A stretch of DNA of 33,990 nucleotides from Gammaproteobacteria bacterium (GCA_015491735.1 WFVH01000002.1:1-33990); one strand, 5' to 3'. Positions 5,139-15,631 are shown, numbered from the stretch's first letter. Made by a program: numbers and translations. Notes: generated by a model from the letters alone, not told the origin.

Positions 5139-5879
5139 CTATTTTTCTTTAAACTCGAAGGTTATCGCTGTATTGCCGCCGGCGTTGATCTCTACGGTCT
5201 CTTTCTGCTCTTTCAGCGTACCATGCCAGGCCTTGATGGTATATTTTCCGGGTGGGATGTTATCAATCGTAAAACGGCCGTTATCGTCGACTACCGCAAA
5301 ATAGGGGTTGTCAGCCGTAAAGACGAAGCTGTGCATGAAATCGTGGGCGTCACACTCTACCTTGAGCGCCTTGCCGCGTTTCAGTTTGACTTTTTTCTTT
5401 ATGCTTCCCGGTTCGGCCTGGCTTATGTTGAATACCGTTTTTTTTGCCCTGCCAATGATTTCATAAGTGTGGATGTTGTGCAGAATAGGGTCGTCGTTAA
5501 TCGCGGCCAGTTCACTTCCGTTGCGCATTACCTGTAAAAAGGGCTTGAACTCGCACTCGTTTTGCTCAATGGCTGAGCTTGATAGTTCGGGCGGGAATGG
5601 TTTCCCTTCCTTGATCTTGTCAAGGTAGACAATGACGTTGGTCAATGCGCCATTGTTGACTGCGACATAATCGATCTCCCGGCTGCCGGTGCCGCAGGTA
5701 TCGTTGTCCTTGTTTATTTTATATGTTTTTGGGGCCGGGTCGGAGCCGGAGAAGGTTACCTTCCCGCTGACGCTGCCACCATTGACCACGTTGCTCTCCT
5801 TGTATTTTGCAGCGTGCGCGACGAAGGGTAGTCCGGTTATCAAAATGACGGATAAAATGGTAGCCACCGGTTTCATCAT
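5139..5879 (-). CDS. exported cupredoxin-like protein with C-terminal carboxypeptidase-regulatory-like domain
   Basis: A 246-residue protein with a signal peptide (residues 1-23, cleavage after AHA). Two parts are visible. The middle (about 35-190) looks like a cupredoxin: His134 or His137 in LHNIHTYE, then Cys176, His179 and Met182 in VECDAHDFM. This Cys-x2-His-x2-Met spacing is that of the amicyanin-type type 1 copper loop. The end (about 193-245) has the FTIDNIPPGKYTIKAWHG pattern of a carboxypeptidase-regulatory-like beta domain. Cys62 and Cys109 could form a disulfide. Such proteins are often annotated methylamine-utilisation or plastocyanin-like and are presumed periplasmic electron carriers or copper binders; that role is inference. 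Its start overlaps the HEAT gene stop by four bases (ATGA), with AAGGAG upstream. Confidence 0.75.
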   Translation of the reverse strand: MMKPVATILSVILITGLPFVAHAAKYKESNVVNGGSVSGKVTFSGSDPAPKTYKINKDNDTCGTGSREIDYVAVNNGALTNVIVYLDKIKEGKPFPPELSSSAIEQNECEFKPFLQVMRNGSELAAINDDPILHNIHTYEIIGRAKKTVFNISQAEPGSIKKKVKLKRGKALKVECDAHDFMHSFVFTADNPYFAVVDDNGRFTIDNIPPGKYTIKAWHGTLKEQKETVEINAGGNTAITFEFKEK

Positions 5880-8188
5880 GTATCTCCTTGTGTTTTGCCA
5901 TGTCCAACGCCCATTATACCCGATCTAAGTCCGGCTTTGGCCTGGTACAGCGTTTCTTCCAGTAGTTCGATGGCAATCCGCCGTTGGTGGCTGTGCTGGC
6001 TTGAGTCAATCAGTGACAGCACACTGTCTACGCTGGAGTCGATATCGATTTGTCGCAGGATGCGTCCCATCTCTCTGGCCTGTGCTCCCTCGTCGGCATA
6101 GGCGGCGGCAATGATTTTTTCGATGGCATGTTGCTTGAACCGGGTTTCTTCCTCGTTCTGAGACAGCAGCAGAGACAACCCGCGTGCTGCAGCCAGCCGG
6201 ACTCCACTTGCCGCGTCGTCCAGGCAAGCGAGTAGCTGAGCCACTGTTTTGCTGTGATGCATGAGCTTGCCGGTACCAGCGGTGAACGAAGCTGTGCAAA
6301 ACTCGACCAGGCCATTGACCGCTTCAATGCGCTCCTGAGTCTCAACGCTTTTCAGCCGGTTTAGCAAAAAGGGGAAAGCTTCCGGCCGCCCCAGCCTGGC
6401 CAGCGTGCGAACGGTGGCCAGGCGTATCTCCTGGTTGCCTGATTCCAACTGCGCCAGTAAAGGTTCCAGCGCATCCTGCAATGCAGAACCATCTGTAGAG
6501 TCCGCAGCAATCCTGCCCAGGGCGATTGTTACCTCTTTGCGCAGTGCGGGCTGCCCGGTTTCCAGGCATTTCATGAGGGTGGTGATGGCTTCTTCTTCGT
6601 GGCAGGCGGCCAATACTCTCGCCGCGAGAATGCGTGTTTCGGTGGAAATACCTCCCTTGTCGCTGGATGTTTGCCGGCCGCCTTTTTCTGCCAGATCCAG
6701 GTACTCCTGTAGAGCGGAAAGCTCCTCTTGTGTATCCAACTGCTCCCGTGACGCTGAACCGGTCGCAGCGGCAGTGCTCTTTTTTTCCGATAGCGCGCTG
6801 CCGCTGATGGCCTCCAGGCTGGTGTTTGCCCCCTTTGTTACCGGGGGGGGCGGTGCGCCCGCAGGTTCTGCATGGCGGTTTTTCACGGGTTGATGTGGGG
6901 TGGAAAGCGGCTTGATTTCCCCTTTCAGGATTTTAAGGATGGCGTCGAAGGCCCTGCTTGCCTCTGGTGCGTTTGAGGTTGCCAGTTTCATCAAGGCGGT
7001 CAGGGACTCCAGGCGTATGAGTTGCTCCTTGTCACTGATGGCGTTGTGGATGAGGGCGTTGAGAGTCTCTTCACCGGCATCTCCTGCCGTCGCTACTGCC
7101 TGGATAGCCTGCTGGCGCAGATAGATATCAGCATCGAGGTTACCAATGATCCGCAGCAACGGCTTTGTTGCCTGCGGAATTTGGTGCTGTGCCAGATAGT
7201 GGCAGGCGGCGATGGCGACGCTCCTGTCCTGATCGCTCAACCGGCGGCAGATCTGTTTTACTATTTCGGGGGTAGGGGCGGTTTCGCTGGCGAGAGCGGC
7301 AGCGGCATTGATCGCAGCAGTCCGTGCAGAAGGCTCCTTGTCTTCGAGAAGAGGGATCAATTGTTCGATGACATTGCCAATGTGCCCGGTGTCCGGTGCA
7401 AGCAGTGCGCATGTTTCGGCAGCCGCAACTCTTACTTCCGTTTCCGGATCCTTGAGCGAGGGCAGGATAACTTTCAGGTAGTTTGAGGCCTTGGCAATGC
7501 CGATGGCCATGATTCCTGCACAGCGCACTTCCGCCTCCTTGTCGAACAGTGCGTACTCGATTAGAGCGGTAGCTGCGCCGCTACCGGCCCGTCCCAACAC
7601 GGTGGCTACGCGGCGCCGTTCGGCGGTGGAGCCACCGGTGAGCCGCTGCTCCAGTACATCGAGGCCCTCTCCTCCAATTTGTGCCAGAGCGGTCAGTATC
7701 TCCGTTTCGATATCCTGGGCCTCGTCATCCGCCAATAGATACTGGAGCGCGGGTATGGCTTCGGTGGCTTTTTGATGGCCAAGCGCTTTCACTGCATGCA
7801 GCTGCATGTCCCACCAGTCATCCCATTCATCGTCCCAGGGCAGGTTTTCCGGGCGTTGCGTGGCGGCTGCAATCAGTGCCGCCGTTGCCCTTTTGTCAGT
7901 GATCATTGCCAACGCTTCTACCGCTGCTGTGCGTACTTCCCCAATCGGGTGATTTTCAAGCAGTTCGGTCAGGGCTGGTACCGTTTCCGGGCTGCCAATA
8001 CGGCCCAACGCCTCTGCGGCATCGATGCAGACGTCGGGATCTTCACTATAGAGGCAGCCAGTAATGGCGGGTATCGTTGCGGGATCACGCAGCAATCCCA
8101 GCGTGCGCAAGGCGTGACAGCGATCGGCATCGTCTCCCTGGGCAAGCAGCTCGCATAGCGCCGCGATACTCCTCTTTTTTGCAGACAT
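5876..8188 (-). CDS. large HEAT-repeat protein, function unknown
   Basis: This 770-residue protein has no signal peptide or membrane segment, so it is probably cytoplasmic. It is built almost wholly of ~31-residue HEAT/PBS-lyase-type helical repeats, with recurring patterns such as AAEALGRIG, AVEALAMI, TVLGRAG and LGRIA. A low-complexity Pro/Ala/Ser-rich linker (about 430-510) divides it into N- and C-terminal superhelices. HEAT superhelices act as protein-binding scaffolds; I see no catalytic motif. The start has GAGGGA upstream. It is translationally coupled to the downstream exported cupredoxin gene, so the two products probably serve one process, although one is cytoplasmic and the other exported. 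A run of eight G (6843-6850) encodes the tetraproline of the linker. No specific function can be assigned. Confidence 0.8.
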   Translation of the reverse strand: MSAKKRSIAALCELLAQGDDADRCHALRTLGLLRDPATIPAITGCLYSEDPDVCIDAAEALGRIGSPETVPALTELLENHPIGEVRTAAVEALAMITDKRATAALIAAATQRPENLPWDDEWDDWWDMQLHAVKALGHQKATEAIPALQYLLADDEAQDIETEILTALAQIGGEGLDVLEQRLTGGSTAERRRVATVLGRAGSGAATALIEYALFDKEAEVRCAGIMAIGIAKASNYLKVILPSLKDPETEVRVAAAETCALLAPDTGHIGNVIEQLIPLLEDKEPSARTAAINAAAALASETAPTPEIVKQICRRLSDQDRSVAIAACHYLAQHQIPQATKPLLRIIGNLDADIYLRQQAIQAVATAGDAGEETLNALIHNAISDKEQLIRLESLTALMKLATSNAPEASRAFDAILKILKGEIKPLSTPHQPVKNRHAEPAGAPPPPVTKGANTSLEAISGSALSEKKSTAAATGSASREQLDTQEELSALQEYLDLAEKGGRQTSSDKGGISTETRILAARVLAACHEEEAITTLMKCLETGQPALRKEVTIALGRIAADSTDGSALQDALEPLLAQLESGNQEIRLATVRTLARLGRPEAFPFLLNRLKSVETQERIEAVNGLVEFCTASFTAGTGKLMHHSKTVAQLLACLDDAASGVRLAAARGLSLLLSQNEEETRFKQHAIEKIIAAAYADEGAQAREMGRILRQIDIDSSVDSVLSLIDSSQHSHQRRIAIELLEETLYQAKAGLRSGIMGVGHGKTQGDT

Positions 8189-8408: not shown

Positions 8409-9512
8409 TTAGTTCATTACTTGCCGATAGACATCCAACGTCTGCCCGGCAATGGTATCCCAGTCGTATTTCTCCTTCACCCAGGTTCTCAGCTTCGCTT
8501 TCCTTTCGGGGCTGTTTCTCTGCTGTGAAAATGTTGTCAGCATTTTTGACAGGGAGTGGATATCCCCTAGTGGATAGTACTGTTTTGCAGGCAGACCGAC
8601 TTCGGTGTTGGCGGGGATATTGCTCGCAAGCGTTGTCAGTCCGTAACTTAGGGCTTCCAGCATGGCGATGGGAAGGCCTTCATGTGAAGAGGGGAGCACG
8701 AACAGACCGGCATTGGAAAACAGCTCCTGTAATCTTTGCCCGGACTGAAATCCGGTAACCACGATATTGGGGTTTTTTTCGCTTTCGGAGAGCACATTAT
8801 CGACATACTCATTTCGCGGCTCGGTTCCTCCTACGAGAACCAGTTTCCAGTTCGGCAATTTTGCCTGGTTGAACGCGGCAATCAGATCCAGTTGCCTTTT
8901 TTCGGGAACAAACCGGCTGACCAGCAACACATATCGGTTTGGTGTCAACGAAAAGGTGACCAACGACTCTTTTGTCGCCGGAGGGTCAGGCAGAATCACG
9001 CCGTTGGGGATCAGGGCCGAACTGGCGCCATACTTTTTCAGGACAAGCTGCTGTATGACCTTCGAGATAACGATTGTTCGGGATGCGTAACGCACGCCCA
9101 TACGCTCTCCCATGCGTAACACCAGGCGTGCGCCCGATCCCCATTTCTCCCGCTCATAGTCAGCACCATGGTGGGTAATGACGACCTTGATTCCCAACAG
9201 GCGCGCCAGCGGCGTCATCAATGCAGGGCCTACTGCGTGAATATGCAAGATATCCGGCCGCTGAATGCCAGCATACAGGACGCCGATGAATGAGTGCAAG
9301 AAAGCTTCGAGCCCAGTGGCCTTTGGAGACCATAATCGGTGAAAAAAAACACCTTCCCACTTTTTCTGGCGGCGGGGAACATAGGGTGATCTGGCGATAA
9401 CGTGAATTTCACATCCCAGCTTGGCAAGCCGGGGATACAGATGCTCTGCGTGTGTTTCCACTCCGCCCTGGACCTGCGGGAATCCCCTGGTACCCAGAAC
9501 CATGACTTTCAT
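8409..9512 (-). CDS. GT4-family glycosyltransferase (last gene of the polysaccharide operon)
   Basis: A retaining GT-B glycosyltransferase of about 367 residues, cytoplasmic or membrane-associated, expected to add a sugar from a nucleotide donor to a lipid-linked glycan. The N-terminus VMVLGTRGFPQVQGGVETH is the acceptor-side start seen in GT4 rhamnosyltransferase-like proteins. The C-terminal domain has VSRFVPEKRQ and an intact E-x7-E motif in HEGLPIAMLEAL. I chose the start at 9512 because it gives the family N-terminus and forms an ATGA overlap with the preceding gene; a start at 9533 would add seven residues. Donor and acceptor cannot be told from sequence. No clear terminator follows. 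Confidence 0.85.
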   Translation of the reverse strand: MKVMVLGTRGFPQVQGGVETHAEHLYPRLAKLGCEIHVIARSPYVPRRQKKWEGVFFHRLWSPKATGLEAFLHSFIGVLYAGIQRPDILHIHAVGPALMTPLARLLGIKVVITHHGADYEREKWGSGARLVLRMGERMGVRYASRTIVISKVIQQLVLKKYGASSALIPNGVILPDPPATKESLVTFSLTPNRYVLLVSRFVPEKRQLDLIAAFNQAKLPNWKLVLVGGTEPRNEYVDNVLSESEKNPNIVVTGFQSGQRLQELFSNAGLFVLPSSHEGLPIAMLEALSYGLTTLASNIPANTEVGLPAKQYYPLGDIHSLSKMLTTFSQQRNSPERKAKLRTWVKEKYDWDTIAGQTLDVYRQVMN

Positions 9513-10753
9513 GGAAGATGCCTTTGCTGGCATGAAACGCCAAGCTCCCGGTAGAGTGAGCAGATGTTTCTCAGATATTTTTCCCGGCTGAATTCATCTT
9601 CAACCCATGTTCTGGCCGTCCTCCCTTGTTTGGCCGGAAAACGGTCTGGCTGGTTATGGTAGAAGTCAAGGGCAGCCGCAAGTTGATCCACATCTCCGGG
9701 GTTGAAAATGGTTCCTGTCTCCCCTTCCAGAACGAGTTCCGGAATCCCGCCAATCGAAGAAGCGATTACCGGCTTGCCAAGGGCGTAGGATTCCAGAACG
9801 GAAAGCGGCGCATTTTCATACCATTCCGATGGCAGTACGACGGCTCTGCTGGAGCGGATGGTTTCGTGCAGAAGTTTTCCCGTCATATACCCGGCAAAGG
9901 TCACTTTCGATTCAAGTGTGGATGACAGCTGTTTCAAGGCGTGTTCATCGGGGCCACTGCCAATAATCTTGAGGCGCACATTGGCTTTTGCCGCTGCCTG
10001 AATCAGGGTTGAAATCCCCTTCTCCTTGCTTAGCCGGCCAAAATAAACAAATTCCTTTCCCGGATTGAAGCCGGGTTGAAACAGGCTGGTATCGATGAAG
10101 TTGGGAATATAGGCGAACTTTTCCCTGTCCCAACCCCATTCCGAGAATTTTTCCAGGTAGAATCTGCTTGGCACGATGAATTTGTCTACTTTGTTACTGT
10201 AGCTTTTCAGTATTCGATGGAGCAGATCTTCGACGAATATCAACCCGCTCAGTGTATACGAGTCTTTTATGCATTTGTTGATAATTACGTTAACCCTGTT
10301 TCCACCCCTGCAGCGTTCACATATCCTTCCGGACGAGAGCATATGATACTCCGGGCAGGCAATTTTCAGATCGTGCAAGGTGAGAACCGTGGGTATTTTT
10401 CTGTCATGCAGCACACCAAGAACTGAAGGAGAGATATGGTGATAAATGTTGTGCATATGGCAGATGTCCACGGGAATATCATTCAACAGCTGTGAAATTT
10501 TTCTGCGGGACTCCATCGAATAGATGACTTTTGGAACACGCGCCATTTTTTGCAGCAGCGTATAGTTGCCGCCAAACTCTATCTCATCTATAAAATACCT
10601 GCTCCACTCCGAAGGGGGGTTGTTTGGATGGTTCATGGAAAAGCAGGCGACGTTCCACCCGGCTTTCTTGAAAATGGCGTTATGCTCGAGAAAGACAACT
10701 TCGGCGCCGCCCCTGGGGTAAAAATAGTTATTGACAGAGAGTAAGGTTGGCAT
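9509..10753 (-). CDS. GT4-family glycosyltransferase
   Basis: A 414-residue GT-B enzyme. The N-terminal domain begins LLSVNNYFYPRGGAEVVFLE, with the Gly-Gly-Ala-Glu loop of GT4 enzymes, and contains a CHMHNIYHH segment. The C-terminal domain has YFGRLSKEKGI and an intact E-x7-E in WYENAPLSVLESYALGKPV. A Cys-rich patch (CPEYHM, CERCRGG) near residues 133-150 recurs in a subset of GT4 proteins of O-antigen and exopolysaccharide clusters and may bind metal. It is the fifth gene of the operon, 53 bp after the previous stop and overlapping the next start. Sugar specificity is unknown. Confidence 0.87.
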   Translation of the reverse strand: MPTLLSVNNYFYPRGGAEVVFLEHNAIFKKAGWNVACFSMNHPNNPPSEWSRYFIDEIEFGGNYTLLQKMARVPKVIYSMESRRKISQLLNDIPVDICHMHNIYHHISPSVLGVLHDRKIPTVLTLHDLKIACPEYHMLSSGRICERCRGGNRVNVIINKCIKDSYTLSGLIFVEDLLHRILKSYSNKVDKFIVPSRFYLEKFSEWGWDREKFAYIPNFIDTSLFQPGFNPGKEFVYFGRLSKEKGISTLIQAAAKANVRLKIIGSGPDEHALKQLSSTLESKVTFAGYMTGKLLHETIRSSRAVVLPSEWYENAPLSVLESYALGKPVIASSIGGIPELVLEGETGTIFNPGDVDQLAAALDFYHNQPDRFPAKQGRTARTWVEDEFSREKYLRNICSLYRELGVSCQQRHLP

Positions 10754-10806
10754 TGGCTGTCGGATTTTCTGTGCAAGCTGTTATGGATCTGTTTTGTGGT
10801 GGCCGG

Positions 10807-11937
10807 TCAACTCCCGGATTCAATGCAGGGGGTTATGTGCTCCCTGATTTTTCCGGATACAACCTCCAGCGTAAAATTTTCACGATATCTTTCGTAGCTG
10901 TTTTTGCCAAATGTGGCGCATTTTTGTTCATCACCAACAAGGTTGCACAATGCGTCTGCAAGCTGGTCGACATTGCCGGCATCGACGAGATATCCATTTT
11001 CTCCCGGCTCAATATACTCGGGAATTGCACCAATCCGGGTTCCAACTACGGGAAGCCGGTATCTCATTGCCTCGGTAAATACAATGCCGGCGTGCTCCTT
11101 TAGGGTAGGAAGGCAAAACAGTGAGGCGTTTTCATAGTACTTGGCCAACTCCTTCTTGGGCACTTTGCCGGCAACGTTGATGTTGGCAACTTCTGTGTCG
11201 ACATTGCAACCGACAATGGTCAAACGTGCAGACGGCTGCCGGGAGAGTACTTTCCTGAAAGCCTCGATGAGTACGGGTCCCCCTTTTCTATCCCAGTCGA
11301 TACCAATGAACAGAATGTTTTTGCTCGAATACTTGCTGTTGTTGTGTGTTCCGGGTTCTGCGTCGTTGTACGGGGCATAGTAGATACACCTGACCTTTGA
11401 TCTGTTGCATGAGTAGTCGTTCAGGAGCGATGTCACGATTTTCTCGTAGCGGGTCAGCACCATGGCAGCATTGTGGTATATGGTTTTTTCCAGGGCCATC
11501 CACTCGTTGCACAGCAGATCTTTTGACTCGTCAAAGTCGGGATAACAGCGGTTCTCCTGCAGTGTGTGGTCTGTATATACAAAATTGGGAACCCCCTGTG
11601 TGCTGGCGTCAAACAGAGAGTTGTCCTGAAAAGTAAAAAGATAGCTGTTCGATGTTACCCGTTCGTTAACCAGCCTTTTGATCTGCCTGAACATATAGGG
11701 TGTTCCAAAAAACCGGAGATACAGAAGGTTTTTCCCCCCGGTGAAGCTGCTGAATCCATATATTTTTATGATGTGCAAGATGTTGAAAATAATAACATGT
11801 GGTTTTTTTTTCAACAGGGGTTTGATGTCTATGATCTCACCTTCATACTCGGGAAAAGCATGCCGCAGAATATTGGTGATTTGGTGCACCACTGTATGAT
11901 TGGTCCGTATTTTTATAAAAGCGTACTTTTTTTTCAT
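10807..11937 (-). CDS. GT4-family glycosyltransferase, AT-rich
   Basis: A 376-residue protein. The N-terminal half is poorly conserved and Lys/Ile/Asn/Phe-rich (LLKKKPHVIIFNILHIIKIY). The C-terminal half is clearly GT4: ILFIGIDWDRKGGPVLIEAF, LTIVGC, and an intact E-x7-E in KEHAGIVFTEAMRYRLPVVGT, with GENGYLVD after it. The coding sequence is visibly richer in A and T than the flanking housekeeping genes, as is common in horizontally acquired polysaccharide loci. A 60-bp gap separates it from the polymerase gene upstream. The acceptor is unknown. Confidence 0.83.
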   Translation of the reverse strand: MKKKYAFIKIRTNHTVVHQITNILRHAFPEYEGEIIDIKPLLKKKPHVIIFNILHIIKIYGFSSFTGGKNLLYLRFFGTPYMFRQIKRLVNERVTSNSYLFTFQDNSLFDASTQGVPNFVYTDHTLQENRCYPDFDESKDLLCNEWMALEKTIYHNAAMVLTRYEKIVTSLLNDYSCNRSKVRCIYYAPYNDAEPGTHNNSKYSSKNILFIGIDWDRKGGPVLIEAFRKVLSRQPSARLTIVGCNVDTEVANINVAGKVPKKELAKYYENASLFCLPTLKEHAGIVFTEAMRYRLPVVGTRIGAIPEYIEPGENGYLVDAGNVDQLADALCNLVGDEQKCATFGKNSYERYRENFTLEVVSGKIREHITPCIESGS

Positions 11938-11997
11938 CTCTCTAAATGGGTATGACTTGTGACATCCAGCCGGTTTTGTTTCTTCTGTCCTGTCCAG

Positions 11998-13329
11998 TCA
12001 GGATATCAGGTTGTAACGGGTTCTGAATCGCTGTGATGCGATATATCCGGAGAAAAAGGCGAACAGATAGATCAGCGCGTTGAAGTAGAGCATGTTCATA
12101 TAGGGCATGATCACAAATACCATCAAGACCACAGCTATCCATCCGGAAGCTATCGTTCCGGCGATCCCCCCTTTTTTTGCCAGGGCGATGGCGTCGCGCA
12201 AAATGAAAAGCAGAAACAGAACAAACAGCCCCAGGCCGCCAAGACCTGTCTCCCACAGCAAAAACGAGATAATGGTTCCACCACTTACCATGCCAATAAC
12301 AGGGGCGTACACTCCTGAAAAGTCGGCTGCCACCGAGGTTGAGGCGTTTCCCAGGCCCACGCCTGTCCATAAAAGGACGGGGGATTCGGACAGCGTATCG
12401 AACGCCAAGCGGATTTTTTCCATTCGCGCGCTTTTTTCCTCCCCAACCTGTTCCGCCTTGTACCCGATAACATCCACCTCTTCCTGCCGCAGCAGCCCTT
12501 CTGCAGACAGCTCGTTGCCACCTATCACATAGCTCCTTTGCTGGCTATCCGAGAAAAACTCGATGAATCCGGGCCGGCCAGCCATGGCCTGGTAGTAGTT
12601 GTAAATACCGATGTATCCGGCAACAAGAACCATACAGACGGCGGTAGTCGTGAGTATTTGCTGCTTTGAAATACGCCGTTCGGCCGAGAACAGAAGCGGG
12701 ATAATGATCGCCAGGGGAAGAAGAAACATGGTGACTTTTGTTTCGTTCATTGTTGTGGGCAGAAAAAGCAGTATGGTTACCGCCGCCATTGTGGTTGTTT
12801 TTATCCGCCCCGTGACATAAAAGGCCATCAATATGGCTATTCCGGACACAAGCATCGTGGAGAGGGCGCCGGAGGCCCCGTAACCGAGCGTGCCGGTGAT
12901 GGGATCACCTGATTCAGAGTGCCTGAACAGGATGAGCCGTTGAACAAGCACGACAGGCAGCTGTATGATAAAAAGTACGAGAAGAAACTTTAAGAACCTT
13001 TTGATTTCATCCTCTGAAAAACAGTGGATGACCGGAATGAGAAAGACAGGTATCCATTTGAGATAAGGCCGTGCACCAAGGGCGATGGTGCCTAGTGGAA
13101 CCGCATTGATAATCAGCCCAATCAGGACATGCAGGCATGCGAAGACAAGCAGCACCAGGTATTTGATGTCGATATCGAGCCGTTTCTTTTTCGCTGCCAT
13201 GGGTAGTAGCAGGGCAAATATTGCAATCGACAGCAGTTCGGACAGCAGGCCCAGTTTTCGTACTCCAATACTCCCGCCAATTCCGGAGAGCAGGACGACA
13301 AAAAACAGTATATATACGATCTTGTTCAT
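11998..13329 (-). CDS. Wzy polymerase / O-antigen ligase-like membrane protein
   Basis: A 443-residue polytopic inner-membrane protein with about ten to twelve hydrophobic segments. A large loop (about 255-320, around FIEFFSDSQQRSYVIGGNEL and EEKSARMEKIRLAFDTL) precedes the last four helices, the topology of the Wzy/WaaL superfamily. The segment SPVLLWTGVGLGN matches the region after the loop in O-antigen ligase-like proteins. It may polymerise repeat units or transfer the glycan; the superfamily does not separate these roles by sequence. It lies mid-operon, its start overlapping the preceding glycosyltransferase stop (ATGA). No flippase, chain-length regulator or initiating transferase is in the window, so the pathway is incomplete here. 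Confidence 0.8.
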   Translation of the reverse strand: MNKIVYILFFVVLLSGIGGSIGVRKLGLLSELLSIAIFALLLPMAAKKKRLDIDIKYLVLLVFACLHVLIGLIINAVPLGTIALGARPYLKWIPVFLIPVIHCFSEDEIKRFLKFLLVLFIIQLPVVLVQRLILFRHSESGDPITGTLGYGASGALSTMLVSGIAILMAFYVTGRIKTTTMAAVTILLFLPTTMNETKVTMFLLPLAIIIPLLFSAERRISKQQILTTTAVCMVLVAGYIGIYNYYQAMAGRPGFIEFFSDSQQRSYVIGGNELSAEGLLRQEEVDVIGYKAEQVGEEKSARMEKIRLAFDTLSESPVLLWTGVGLGNASTSVAADFSGVYAPVIGMVSGGTIISFLLWETGLGGLGLFVLFLLFILRDAIALAKKGGIAGTIASGWIAVVLMVFVIMPYMNMLYFNALIYLFAFFSGYIASQRFRTRYNLIS

Positions 13330-14516
13330 TTTGCTGGCGCTTCCGGCTGGCCGTCTGTTTTGACTACCGGGAAGGTTTTTTCCAGATAGGCGATGAATCT
13401 CTCTGCCAGAATGTCCCAGCTGTACCGGGAGGCAATGAACCTTGGTGCATCTGCTGCCTCGTTACGCAGTGCCTTGCGGTTTTCAAAGGCATAAATAATG
13501 GCCCTCTGGAAATCGGATGCTTGATGCCCCTCAGTCCACACTATGAACCGTTCCTTGTTCAACGCGTCGGTATGCGCTGGAATCGGGGTGATGATGGCCG
13601 GTTTGCCGCAGGCCAGATACTCCAGAAGCTTTAGCGGACTCGAGACGTTCCACTGCAGATAGTTTGGCAGTGGACAGATGCAGCAGTCAGCCCGGGATAT
13701 CTCGGCGGGTATTTTTTCATAGGGAACAAACCCTTTGTATTCGACGATGCTTGGTTGCGCCGCTGATTGGGAAATCAGCTTCAGATTTTTGAGTCCCCCA
13801 CCCGTTCCAACCACAATCAACCGGATTTTTTCACGATAAGGCTCGGCCAGCGTCTCAACGGACTCGACCATCTCTTCCAGCCCCCTGTGGGCATAAATGC
13901 TTCCATGGTAGAAGAGCAAAAAGGGTTCGTTGCTGTCAGGGGCGTTTCCAGCTGGCTTGAATCTCCCTGTGTTTACCCCGGACGACCATATCTCATAGTT
14001 TTTGAAGGTGGTGGAAAACTCCTCCTCGATTGCCGTCTTCAGGCGCCGGGTAATAAAACTGTATCCTCTTGCCTGGCCGCGCAGGTATTTCATCGGCAGG
14101 GTCCAGAACAGCCAGTTGTCGGCTCTTTTTTTCAGGCTCCTGCTTTGGGTAAGCGGCAGCGTTCGTACATCAAGGTGAACATTGTTGATTCCACGCAGGG
14201 AAAGAAAAGGAGCCACCCACAGCATATCCGGATTGATGATGATAATATCATTCCTGTTGGCCTTGAAGAGCAACCACAGCAAAGAGCTGAACATCAGCGT
14301 TACCCTGAATATGAGGGGAATATTTATCGCTGGCAGATAGATCATTTCGGGATACGCTTTTTCCGGGGTGTACTTTTCCCTGCCGAATCCGGTCACGACG
14401 CAAACCTTATACCCTTTTTCTCCAAATCTGGCGGATATTTCGATCCAGGCGCTTTTGTTTGGTTTTTCGTCAAAGCGATCGTTGTTCAGCCAAATAATGC
14501 GGCGCCGCTCACTCAT
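13326..14516 (-). CDS. GT4-like glycosyltransferase with variant catalytic motif
   Basis: A 396-residue GT-B protein. The N-terminal domain (IIWLNNDRFDEKPNKSAWIE) includes a hydrophobic stretch near 85-105 likely to associate with the membrane. The C-terminal domain has LLFYHGSIYAHRGLEEMVE, an IRLIVVGTGGG strand and SSPLKLLEYLACGKPAIIT. Only the second Glu of the usual E-x7-E is present; the first position falls in the WNVSS segment. This S-P-x-K-x-x-E form is known in a branch of GT4. It overlaps by four bases both the gene before and the gene after it, so the first three cistrons are tightly coupled. Confidence 0.82.
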   Translation of the reverse strand: MSERRRIIWLNNDRFDEKPNKSAWIEISARFGEKGYKVCVVTGFGREKYTPEKAYPEMIYLPAINIPLIFRVTLMFSSLLWLLFKANRNDIIIINPDMLWVAPFLSLRGINNVHLDVRTLPLTQSRSLKKRADNWLFWTLPMKYLRGQARGYSFITRRLKTAIEEEFSTTFKNYEIWSSGVNTGRFKPAGNAPDSNEPFLLFYHGSIYAHRGLEEMVESVETLAEPYREKIRLIVVGTGGGLKNLKLISQSAAQPSIVEYKGFVPYEKIPAEISRADCCICPLPNYLQWNVSSPLKLLEYLACGKPAIITPIPAHTDALNKERFIVWTEGHQASDFQRAIIYAFENRKALRNEAADAPRFIASRYSWDILAERFIAYLEKTFPVVKTDGQPEAPAK

Positions 14517-15631
14517 CTTTCTGTTTTCTCCGCCAGTAGCTGAACCAGCTGTTTGCCGTTGTTGTTCGAGTGGTATTCAAGCGCATAACTTCTGGCATTT
14601 CTGGCCAACGAGGTGCGAAGTTCCCGGTTTTCGATCAAAAGATTGACATTTTTTACCAGTTGCTCGAAATCACCATGACATGCCAGGCCAACACCATGCC
14701 TGTCCAGCACATTGTCAGGGTTGGCATTGAGGCTCACAACGGGAACTTCACGCATCCATGCCTGAATGAAGGTGTTTGGAAATCCTTCATATTGGCTGGT
14801 ATTGACCAGAATATGCGCTTGAGCCAATATTTCATTGACCTTGTCAAAAGGTTGCTCACCAATGTAGTCGACGCAGCCGGTCTCTGAAATCTCCTTTTGT
14901 AGTTCGCGCCCCCATCGCCAGTTGCTGTTGCGGCCGATCATGGTGAATCGGCTTTTTGTATGGTGATGAAGCCGTTCCGCCATCTTCATGAATAGTCGTG
15001 GTTGTTTCAGCGGCTTCAGGTTTGCCACCCATACCACATGGATCTGGCTGTCTTTGGGGGGGGGGAGGGGGGGGGCTGGGTGGAAGTTTGCCACAATGCC
15101 GCTGGGTGTTCGGCCATAATTTTGTTCAAGCAGCTTTTTCTGCTGCCTGGTTTGCACAACGATGTTGGTTGCATGTTTTACACCATATTCAAGCGCCTTC
15201 TTTTCCAGATGGCGAAAAGCGATATTTTTCGACAGCTTGAACTGCAGCGGTTTCAGATCCTGATCGCTTGCCACGTGCCACAGCATGCTGCATCCGTTTT
15301 TCTTGGCATAGAGTGCAGCAATTCCTGTATAGGCACACCCTACCCGCTGGTAGATGCTGTCAGGAGAAATGCTTTTCAGTGTGGAGTACAGCTTCCGCGC
15401 ATCGAAAAGGTGGCTGTGACGCGCGAACGCGTGTTTACTGCCAACGCAGTGCAGGTGATATCCGCGCGCGTCGAAGCCTGGGTCGACGGAGCGTGCAATA
15501 TAATGAATTTCAAAGGCGTTGCTTTCCATTAGCATATCCAGCAAACATTTTATCTGATATTCCGCACCGCCAAAACTGGCAGCCCAGTGAGACGGTGTAA
15601 CGATACATAGTTTTCTCTTTCCAGCGGTCAT
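14513..15631 (-). CDS. GT4-family glycosyltransferase (first gene of operon) with poly-C tract
   Basis: A 372-residue GT-B protein and the promoter-proximal cistron. The N-terminus IVTPSHWAASFGGAEYQIK has the Gly-Gly-Ala-Glu acceptor loop. The C-terminal domain has VVWVANLKPLKQPRLF and EGFPNTFIQAW, where the second Glu of E-x7-E is Gln; this form recurs in GT4 enzymes of exopolysaccharide clusters. A Pro-rich linker (PAPPLPPPKD) between the domains is encoded by runs of ten and nine G on the plus strand (15056-15065, 15067-15075). Any slippage there would shift the frame and remove the catalytic domain. In the given sequence the frame is intact. Confidence 0.85.
   Translation of the reverse strand: MTAGKRKLCIVTPSHWAASFGGAEYQIKCLLDMLMESNAFEIHYIARSVDPGFDARGYHLHCVGSKHAFARHSHLFDARKLYSTLKSISPDSIYQRVGCAYTGIAALYAKKNGCSMLWHVASDQDLKPLQFKLSKNIAFRHLEKKALEYGVKHATNIVVQTRQQKKLLEQNYGRTPSGIVANFHPAPPLPPPKDSQIHVVWVANLKPLKQPRLFMKMAERLHHHTKSRFTMIGRNSNWRWGRELQKEISETGCVDYIGEQPFDKVNEILAQAHILVNTSQYEGFPNTFIQAWMREVPVVSLNANPDNVLDRHGVGLACHGDFEQLVKNVNLLIENRELRTSLARNARSYALEYHSNNNGKQLVQLLAEKTER
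15056..15075. repeat. paired homopolymer G tracts G10-A-G9 inside a glycosyltransferase gene
   Basis: Ten G, one A, then nine G on the plus strand, read as C runs in the coding strand. Tracts of this length are prone to slipped-strand mispairing and are classic contingency loci in surface-glycan genes. They are also prone to sequencing error. Confidence 0.8.

Follow-up and report, generated by a model that had tools for sequence, protein, structure and literature searches.

The idrABP1P2 clusters of Pseudomonas sp. SCT and Denitromonas sp. IR-12 encode a Rieske-type 3Fe-4S molybdoenzyme with a Tat-exported Rieske small subunit and, in the same operon, two di-haem peroxidase-like proteins (PMC8692401), features that recur in the molybdoenzyme clusters considered here. 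In published models IdrAB is fed from the quinone pool via cytochrome c; the idr cluster contains no quinone oxidoreductase, and electrons are assumed to take a non-dedicated route via bc1 and cytochrome c (PMC8692401). The closest characterised relative is arsenite oxidase (AioAB), whose A and B subunits are homologous to those found here and whose Rieske subunit is partnered by a blue copper protein or a cytochrome c, exchanging electrons with azurin or cytochrome c (PMC5574378). Genes for a cupredoxin, a HEAT protein, a bd-like subunit and multihaem cytochromes are all missing from the described idr cluster, whose surroundings are reportedly poorly conserved, whereas the additional genes reported here form a conserved setting. 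A search of the literature for combinations of HEAT, cupredoxin, PCP_red or bd returned nothing relevant, and we found no paper joining idrA with a cupredoxin.

We analysed a 33,990-nt window of a gammaproteobacterial genome (GCA_015491735.1, WFVH01000002.1:1-33990) that carries two adjacent genes on its minus strand. Their reading frames are as given by the first-pass annotation: a 770-aa HEAT-repeat protein (HEAT; 5876–8188) and a 246-aa exported cupredoxin-like protein with a C-terminal carboxypeptidase-regulatory-like domain (CUP; 5139–5879). HEAT is an α-solenoid that HEAT repeat models match along its length (HEAT_2, E 1.3e-63); by-eye inspection revealed neither a signal peptide nor a transmembrane segment, in agreement with its earlier description as signal-less. 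Its two solenoid halves are separated by a disordered linker (residues 431–510; 6659–6898, minus strand), in which a short motif at about residues 456–461 is conserved in most relatives. A PDB fold search with HEAT yielded generic α-solenoids (CAND1, importins, PP2A scaffold) and no functional clue. Phycobilin lyase identity was rejected, as HEAT lies far under the NCBIfam equivalog cut-offs (72 vs. 220 bits for CpcF and 62 vs. 330 bits for CpcE). Our guess is that HEAT serves in assembly, Tat proofreading or regulation in the cytoplasm. Upstream of HEAT, a run of GT4-type glycosyltransferases (8409–15631), which includes one gene lacking any Pfam match (11998–13329), is probably an exopolysaccharide cluster. 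Elsewhere in the window, a 299-aa frame (1458–2357) matches PlsY over residues 106–294 only, and its true start probably lies further in.

CUP opens with a Sec-type signal peptide as read by eye from the sequence (residues 1–23, ending in VAHA and followed by A; 5811–5879, minus strand), and the corresponding N-terminus is disordered and of low confidence in the AlphaFold2 model. The model, computed from an input of 64 homologues, has a mean pLDDT of 90.5 and places the strands as in cupredoxins, with H134 at a strand start, C176 at a strand end, and H179 and M182 in the loop leading to the next strand. Foldseek searches with this model returned amicyanin, pseudoazurin, plastocyanin and AcoP; at the sequence level, the cupredoxin part has no match in Pfam or the PDB. 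The predicted first copper ligand region (H134-N-I-H137; 5469–5480, minus strand) is followed by the loop C176-D-A-H179-D-F-M182-H183 (5331–5354, minus strand), which has the spacing of a type-1 copper site in amicyanin, the C-x2-H-x2-M spacing being of the amicyanin type. CUP thus contains the His/Cys/His/Met ligand set with its C-terminal loop (H134, C176, H179 and M182). In an alignment of 81 CUP sequences (the window and 80 public loci), H134, N135, H137, C176, H179, M182 and H183 are invariant, as are C62, C109 and H219. A CarboxypepD_reg/fn3_3 β-sandwich occupies residues 188–242 (5154–5318, minus strand; domain match). The fold and the loop spacing are shared with the known blue copper proteins, but CUP differs from amicyanin, pseudoazurin and plastocyanin by an N-terminal extension with two invariant Cys, by three extra invariant His and by the fused carboxypeptidase-regulatory-like domain. 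The leader, the loop and the C-terminal domain agree with the first-pass description of an exported protein with these parts, and the structure prediction that it had called for favours a cupredoxin fold. From sequence and model, CUP would be a type-1 (blue) copper protein that binds copper.

The earlier reading rested on a four-base overlap of the two genes, from which translational coupling and a joint task were proposed. This ATGA overlap is peculiar to the window, and HEAT and CUP are separated by gaps of 20–610 bp in 62 relatives, so translational coupling is not a conserved feature and was rejected. Even in the window, the real overlap is probably a single base, because relatives conserve the second Met of the CUP frame (codon 5876–5874), which has its own RBS-like AAGGAG 7 nt ahead of it (5884–5889, minus strand). 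Promoter and terminator scans gave site counts no higher than in shuffled sequences.

The joint task itself fares better. The genome-contig scan yielded 71 loci with at least 2.5 kb of DNA upstream of CUP, and in 64 of them the next gene upstream is HEAT, in the same orientation, an adjacency far beyond chance that answers the survey proposed at the outset. Both genes are under purifying selection, with dN/dS of ~0.1 for CUP and ~0.25 for HEAT between the window and same-genus relatives, where dS is near saturation. Across 274 gammaproteobacterial genomes, HEAT was never seen without CUP (9 of 9 HEAT genomes; Fisher 2e-13, uncorrected for phylogeny, as are all co-occurrence statistics given here). 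HEAT and CUP belong together, since their adjacency is conserved, their dN/dS is low and they are retained jointly once neighbours are lost. The carriers are mostly sulfur-oxidising Gammaproteobacteria, including Sedimenticola, Candidatus Thiodiazotropha, tubeworm symbionts and hydrothermal MAGs.

In relatives, the pair sits within a larger gene neighbourhood. Of the 52 loci in which at least 6 kb precede HEAT-CUP, 45 have a divergent gene for a bd-like subunit (bdI) there, with genes for a diheme and then a triheme c-type cytochrome behind it. Downstream, a USP/PCP_red protein and a radical-SAM/PCP_red protein are each encoded in 42 of the 46 loci with long downstream flanks and an FAD amine-oxidase-type protein in 41 of them; this set also includes a small protein and a Cache-type sensor kinase. 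The bdI of relatives matches Cyt_bd_oxida_I and adjoins c-type cytochromes, like the bd-type OR-N/CydAA' family, but is a partner module in relatives only and absent from the window genome. Searches of that genome for the bd and PCP_red modules found no bdI, USP-PCP or rSAM-PCP.

Some features of these neighbours deserve separate mention. In loci L142, L145, L151 and L159 a bdI homologue is encoded on the same strand as the diheme/triheme cytochromes and the genes for the two peroxidases, Rieske protein and molybdoenzyme. At the position of E. coli CydA Glu99, this homologue apparently has a residue other than Glu (by eye), so O2 reduction by it is uncertain. PCP_red is a small helical domain of dark protochlorophyllide reductase; here the USP and radical-SAM (SPASM) proteins are fused to several PCP_red domains (L056:9174-13834 and more than 40 other loci; L100:11074-12396) in non-photosynthetic sulfur oxidisers, next to the FAD amine-oxidase-type protein. 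These fusions possibly serve the cytochromes encoded nearby through tetrapyrrole or cofactor chemistry. The only PCP_red frame found in the window genome is short and stands alone (G000:C24:14623-14754, L118).

In sulfur-oxidising marine bacteria the pair is also linked to a molybdoenzyme cluster, abbreviated P2-P1-B-A for two peroxidases, Rieske protein and molybdoenzyme (MoA). In G004 (L038/L143), which lacks bdI, HEAT-CUP is divergent from SCO1-P2-P1-B-A, that is, from genes for SCO1, two MauG/CCP-type di-haem proteins, a Tat-type Rieske protein and a Rieske_3 molybdoenzyme. HEAT is arranged likewise at a contig edge in L171. In G001 the start of HEAT, at a contig edge, is divergent from SCO1-P2-P1-B-A. 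Other loci have the orders A-HEAT-CUP (L115), CUP-P2-P1-A (L156) and CUP-P2-P1-B-A-HEAT-bdI (L157), or place HEAT-CUP divergent from bdI-diheme-cyc3-P2-P1-B-A (L159; the order is the same in L145, where HEAT alone falls inside the stretch read). The same gene content in several orders argues for a functional link rather than one inherited block. The window genome carries P2-P1-Rieske-MoA on a separate contig (G000:C88). Its HEAT-CUP pair looks like it was parted from this cluster by rearrangement, because G001 shares with the window a PhoR gene as neighbour of CUP and yet has HEAT divergent from SCO1-P2-P1-B-A.

Co-occurrence in the 274 genomes follows the same pattern. All 10 genomes with MoA encode a full-length CUP (E < 1e-30; Fisher 5e-15), CUP occurs without the molybdoenzyme in five further genomes, and HEAT and MoA are found together in eight of nine cases. 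The window genome and seven others (G001, G004, G007, G283, G284, G285 and G290) lack bdI yet combine HEAT and/or CUP with MoA; every one of the eight HEAT/CUP genomes without bdI that were examined thus has MoA. Neither CUP nor MoA was detected in the same-genus G005 or the same-family G008–G011, and one MAG of 90% completeness (G103) has HEAT, CUP and bdI with no MoA found. On the Vibrio THAF190c and Azonexus plasmids, neither CUP nor HEAT is encoded in the vicinity of the molybdoenzyme, and the two are therefore not required for this enzyme class generally. On Azonexus and Thiothrix plasmids (L154:1279-4933, L155:4975-8620), the molybdoenzyme adjoins an ATP-binding protein with a sensor domain 30–33% identical to the Cache kinase encoded in the Sedimenticola cluster, and a sigma-54 regulator lies alongside; these clusters likely share a regulator. 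These linkages replace the earlier notion of an isolated two-gene system, as the pair is one arm of a larger set comprising the molybdoenzyme, two di-haem peroxidases, c-type cytochromes and often the bd-like subunit. The pairing of a cytoplasmic with an exported product, puzzling in a two-gene system, loses its difficulty once the pair is placed in a large cluster whose products include cytoplasmic and periplasmic proteins alike.

The A subunit of the window genome is 30–31% identical to AioA and narrowly passes the NCBI arsenite-oxidase model TIGR02693 (378 vs. 359 bits). We take the arsenite-pocket residues of AioA to be H, R, E, R and H at positions 199, 201, 207, 447 and 451 (NT-26 numbering); the positions of R201 and E207 are occupied by T and S in the window genome. 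Aio loci examined as a comparison show the order B-A and no peroxidase genes, in contrast to the two found here. An arsenite oxidase is therefore not favoured, given the 30–31% identity, the altered pocket residues and the two peroxidases. Identity to other enzymes encoded with two peroxidases and a Rieske protein is higher (66% for Vibrio, 49% for Azonexus), and the window enzyme falls into a clade with other P-P-B-A enzymes, apart from four AioA (support 0.92), in a tree that holds no verified IdrA. A published synteny rule for Idr calls for a molybdoenzyme large subunit, a Rieske small subunit and two di-haem CCP genes, and the same paper names Sedimenticola thiotaurini as an idr carrier (PMC8692401). 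This gene combination is present on the separate contig of the window genome and in relatives. By the synteny rule, applied to gene content, the cluster would be of iodate-reductase type, and iodate is the presumed substrate.

Taken together, we favour, with a probability of roughly 0.6, the reading that HEAT and CUP are accessory genes of an IdrAB plus IdrP1/P2-type periplasmic molybdoenzyme system of sulfur-oxidising Proteobacteria, in which CUP acts as carrier. In the periplasm, CUP would act as a one-electron shuttle that links c-type cytochromes with the molybdoenzyme's Rieske subunit, or alternatively with the di-haem peroxidases, in a role analogous to that of azurin or cytochrome c with arsenite oxidase. 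A one-electron partner of the Rieske protein or peroxidases would be the simplest role for CUP because it is encoded in the same gene set and because of the Aio precedent. In other contexts, too, CUP relatives (L160, L162 and L163) have cyc3-family triheme cytochromes as neighbours, as would suit a protein carrying electrons between cytochromes and an enzyme. HEAT would stay in the cytoplasm as a scaffold in enzyme assembly or regulation before Tat export. In many relatives, the bd-like membrane subunit and the diheme/triheme cytochromes could link the cluster either to oxygen or to the quinone pool; the bd module is absent from the window genome, in which rearrangement would have separated the pair from the cluster on the other contig. 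Electron transfer by CUP and its direction are what we infer from this arrangement, and the sequence is compatible both with flow to iodate and with flow from a donor to oxygen. The presence of the bd-like subunit would also suit an oxidative chain to O2 instead of iodate reduction.

This last point underlies a different explanation, which we consider unlikely: that CUP and HEAT chiefly serve a bd-like complex (bdI, diheme c and triheme c), the molybdoenzyme oxidising some donor and feeding CUP, which would pass electrons to a cytochrome-c-type bd oxidase and so to O2. Oxidases had been named in the first-pass annotation as possible companions, and CUP and bdI do share nine genomes (p 1e-11); besides the prevalent divergent placement of bdI (45 of 52 long-flank loci), one genome (G025) has bdI and a 37%-identical CUP homologue but no MoA. 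OR-N bd-type enzymes are moreover thought to use cytochrome c (PMC10839748). However, the window genome and the seven others named above keep HEAT and/or CUP with MoA in the absence of bdI. We give still less credence to the idea that HEAT and CUP are merely positional neighbours, with HEAT and the USP/PCP_red, radical-SAM/PCP_red and FAD proteins together synthesising or repairing a cofactor without CUP. The constancy of these downstream genes (42, 42 and 41 of 46 loci) and the cytoplasmic nature of HEAT by sequence would suit it, but HEAT-CUP persists in the window genome, where searches found neither USP-PCP nor rSAM-PCP, and no genome of the 274 has HEAT without CUP.

The earlier annotation had guessed at either copper handling or electron transfer, and it is the latter that is favoured here. 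Copper sensing or handling is unsupported, despite the SCO1 gene beside the pair in some relatives. It seems quite improbable that, instead of being a carrier, CUP works with SCO1 in the periplasm as a chaperone or store of copper for cuproenzymes: SCO1 does lie between idr and HEAT-CUP in L143 and L171, and H137, H183 and H219 are invariant beyond the classic four ligands, but SCO1 is missing from most clusters read, the C-x2-H-x2-M loop is typical of electron-transfer cupredoxins, and the neighbours are cytochromes and the molybdoenzyme rather than copper enzymes or exporters.

If CUP is the carrier we propose, it could be the missing electron supplier of an iodate-reductase-type enzyme. The electron donor of iodate reductase is unsettled, and the cupredoxin, together with the bd-like module in many genomes, offers candidates for that donor which can be tested directly. 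Redox chemistry of iodine (or another oxyanion) would then extend to hydrothermal and symbiotic sulfur oxidisers, which are widespread, and a HEAT-repeat protein associated with a periplasmic molybdoenzyme would become accessible to study for the first time. A further-reaching proposal, which we hold only tentatively and regard as rather doubtful, is that chemolithoautotrophic sulfur oxidisers, including tubeworm and lucinid symbionts, possess a lineage-specific iodate-reductase system with its own electron route (a bd-like quinol module, multihaem cytochromes and CUP as dedicated blue-copper donor) and with HEAT as a new kind of cytoplasmic maturation factor for the Tat-exported molybdoenzyme.

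A second CUP paralogue, without HEAT, occurs beside a triheme cytochrome in L069 (5596-10973) and also in L066, L071, L078 and L160. In L069 this cytochrome is fused to an ethylbenzene-dehydrogenase-type haem domain; a Fer4_22 protein is encoded near the second paralogue in several of these loci, accompanied in L069 by an FAD oxidoreductase.
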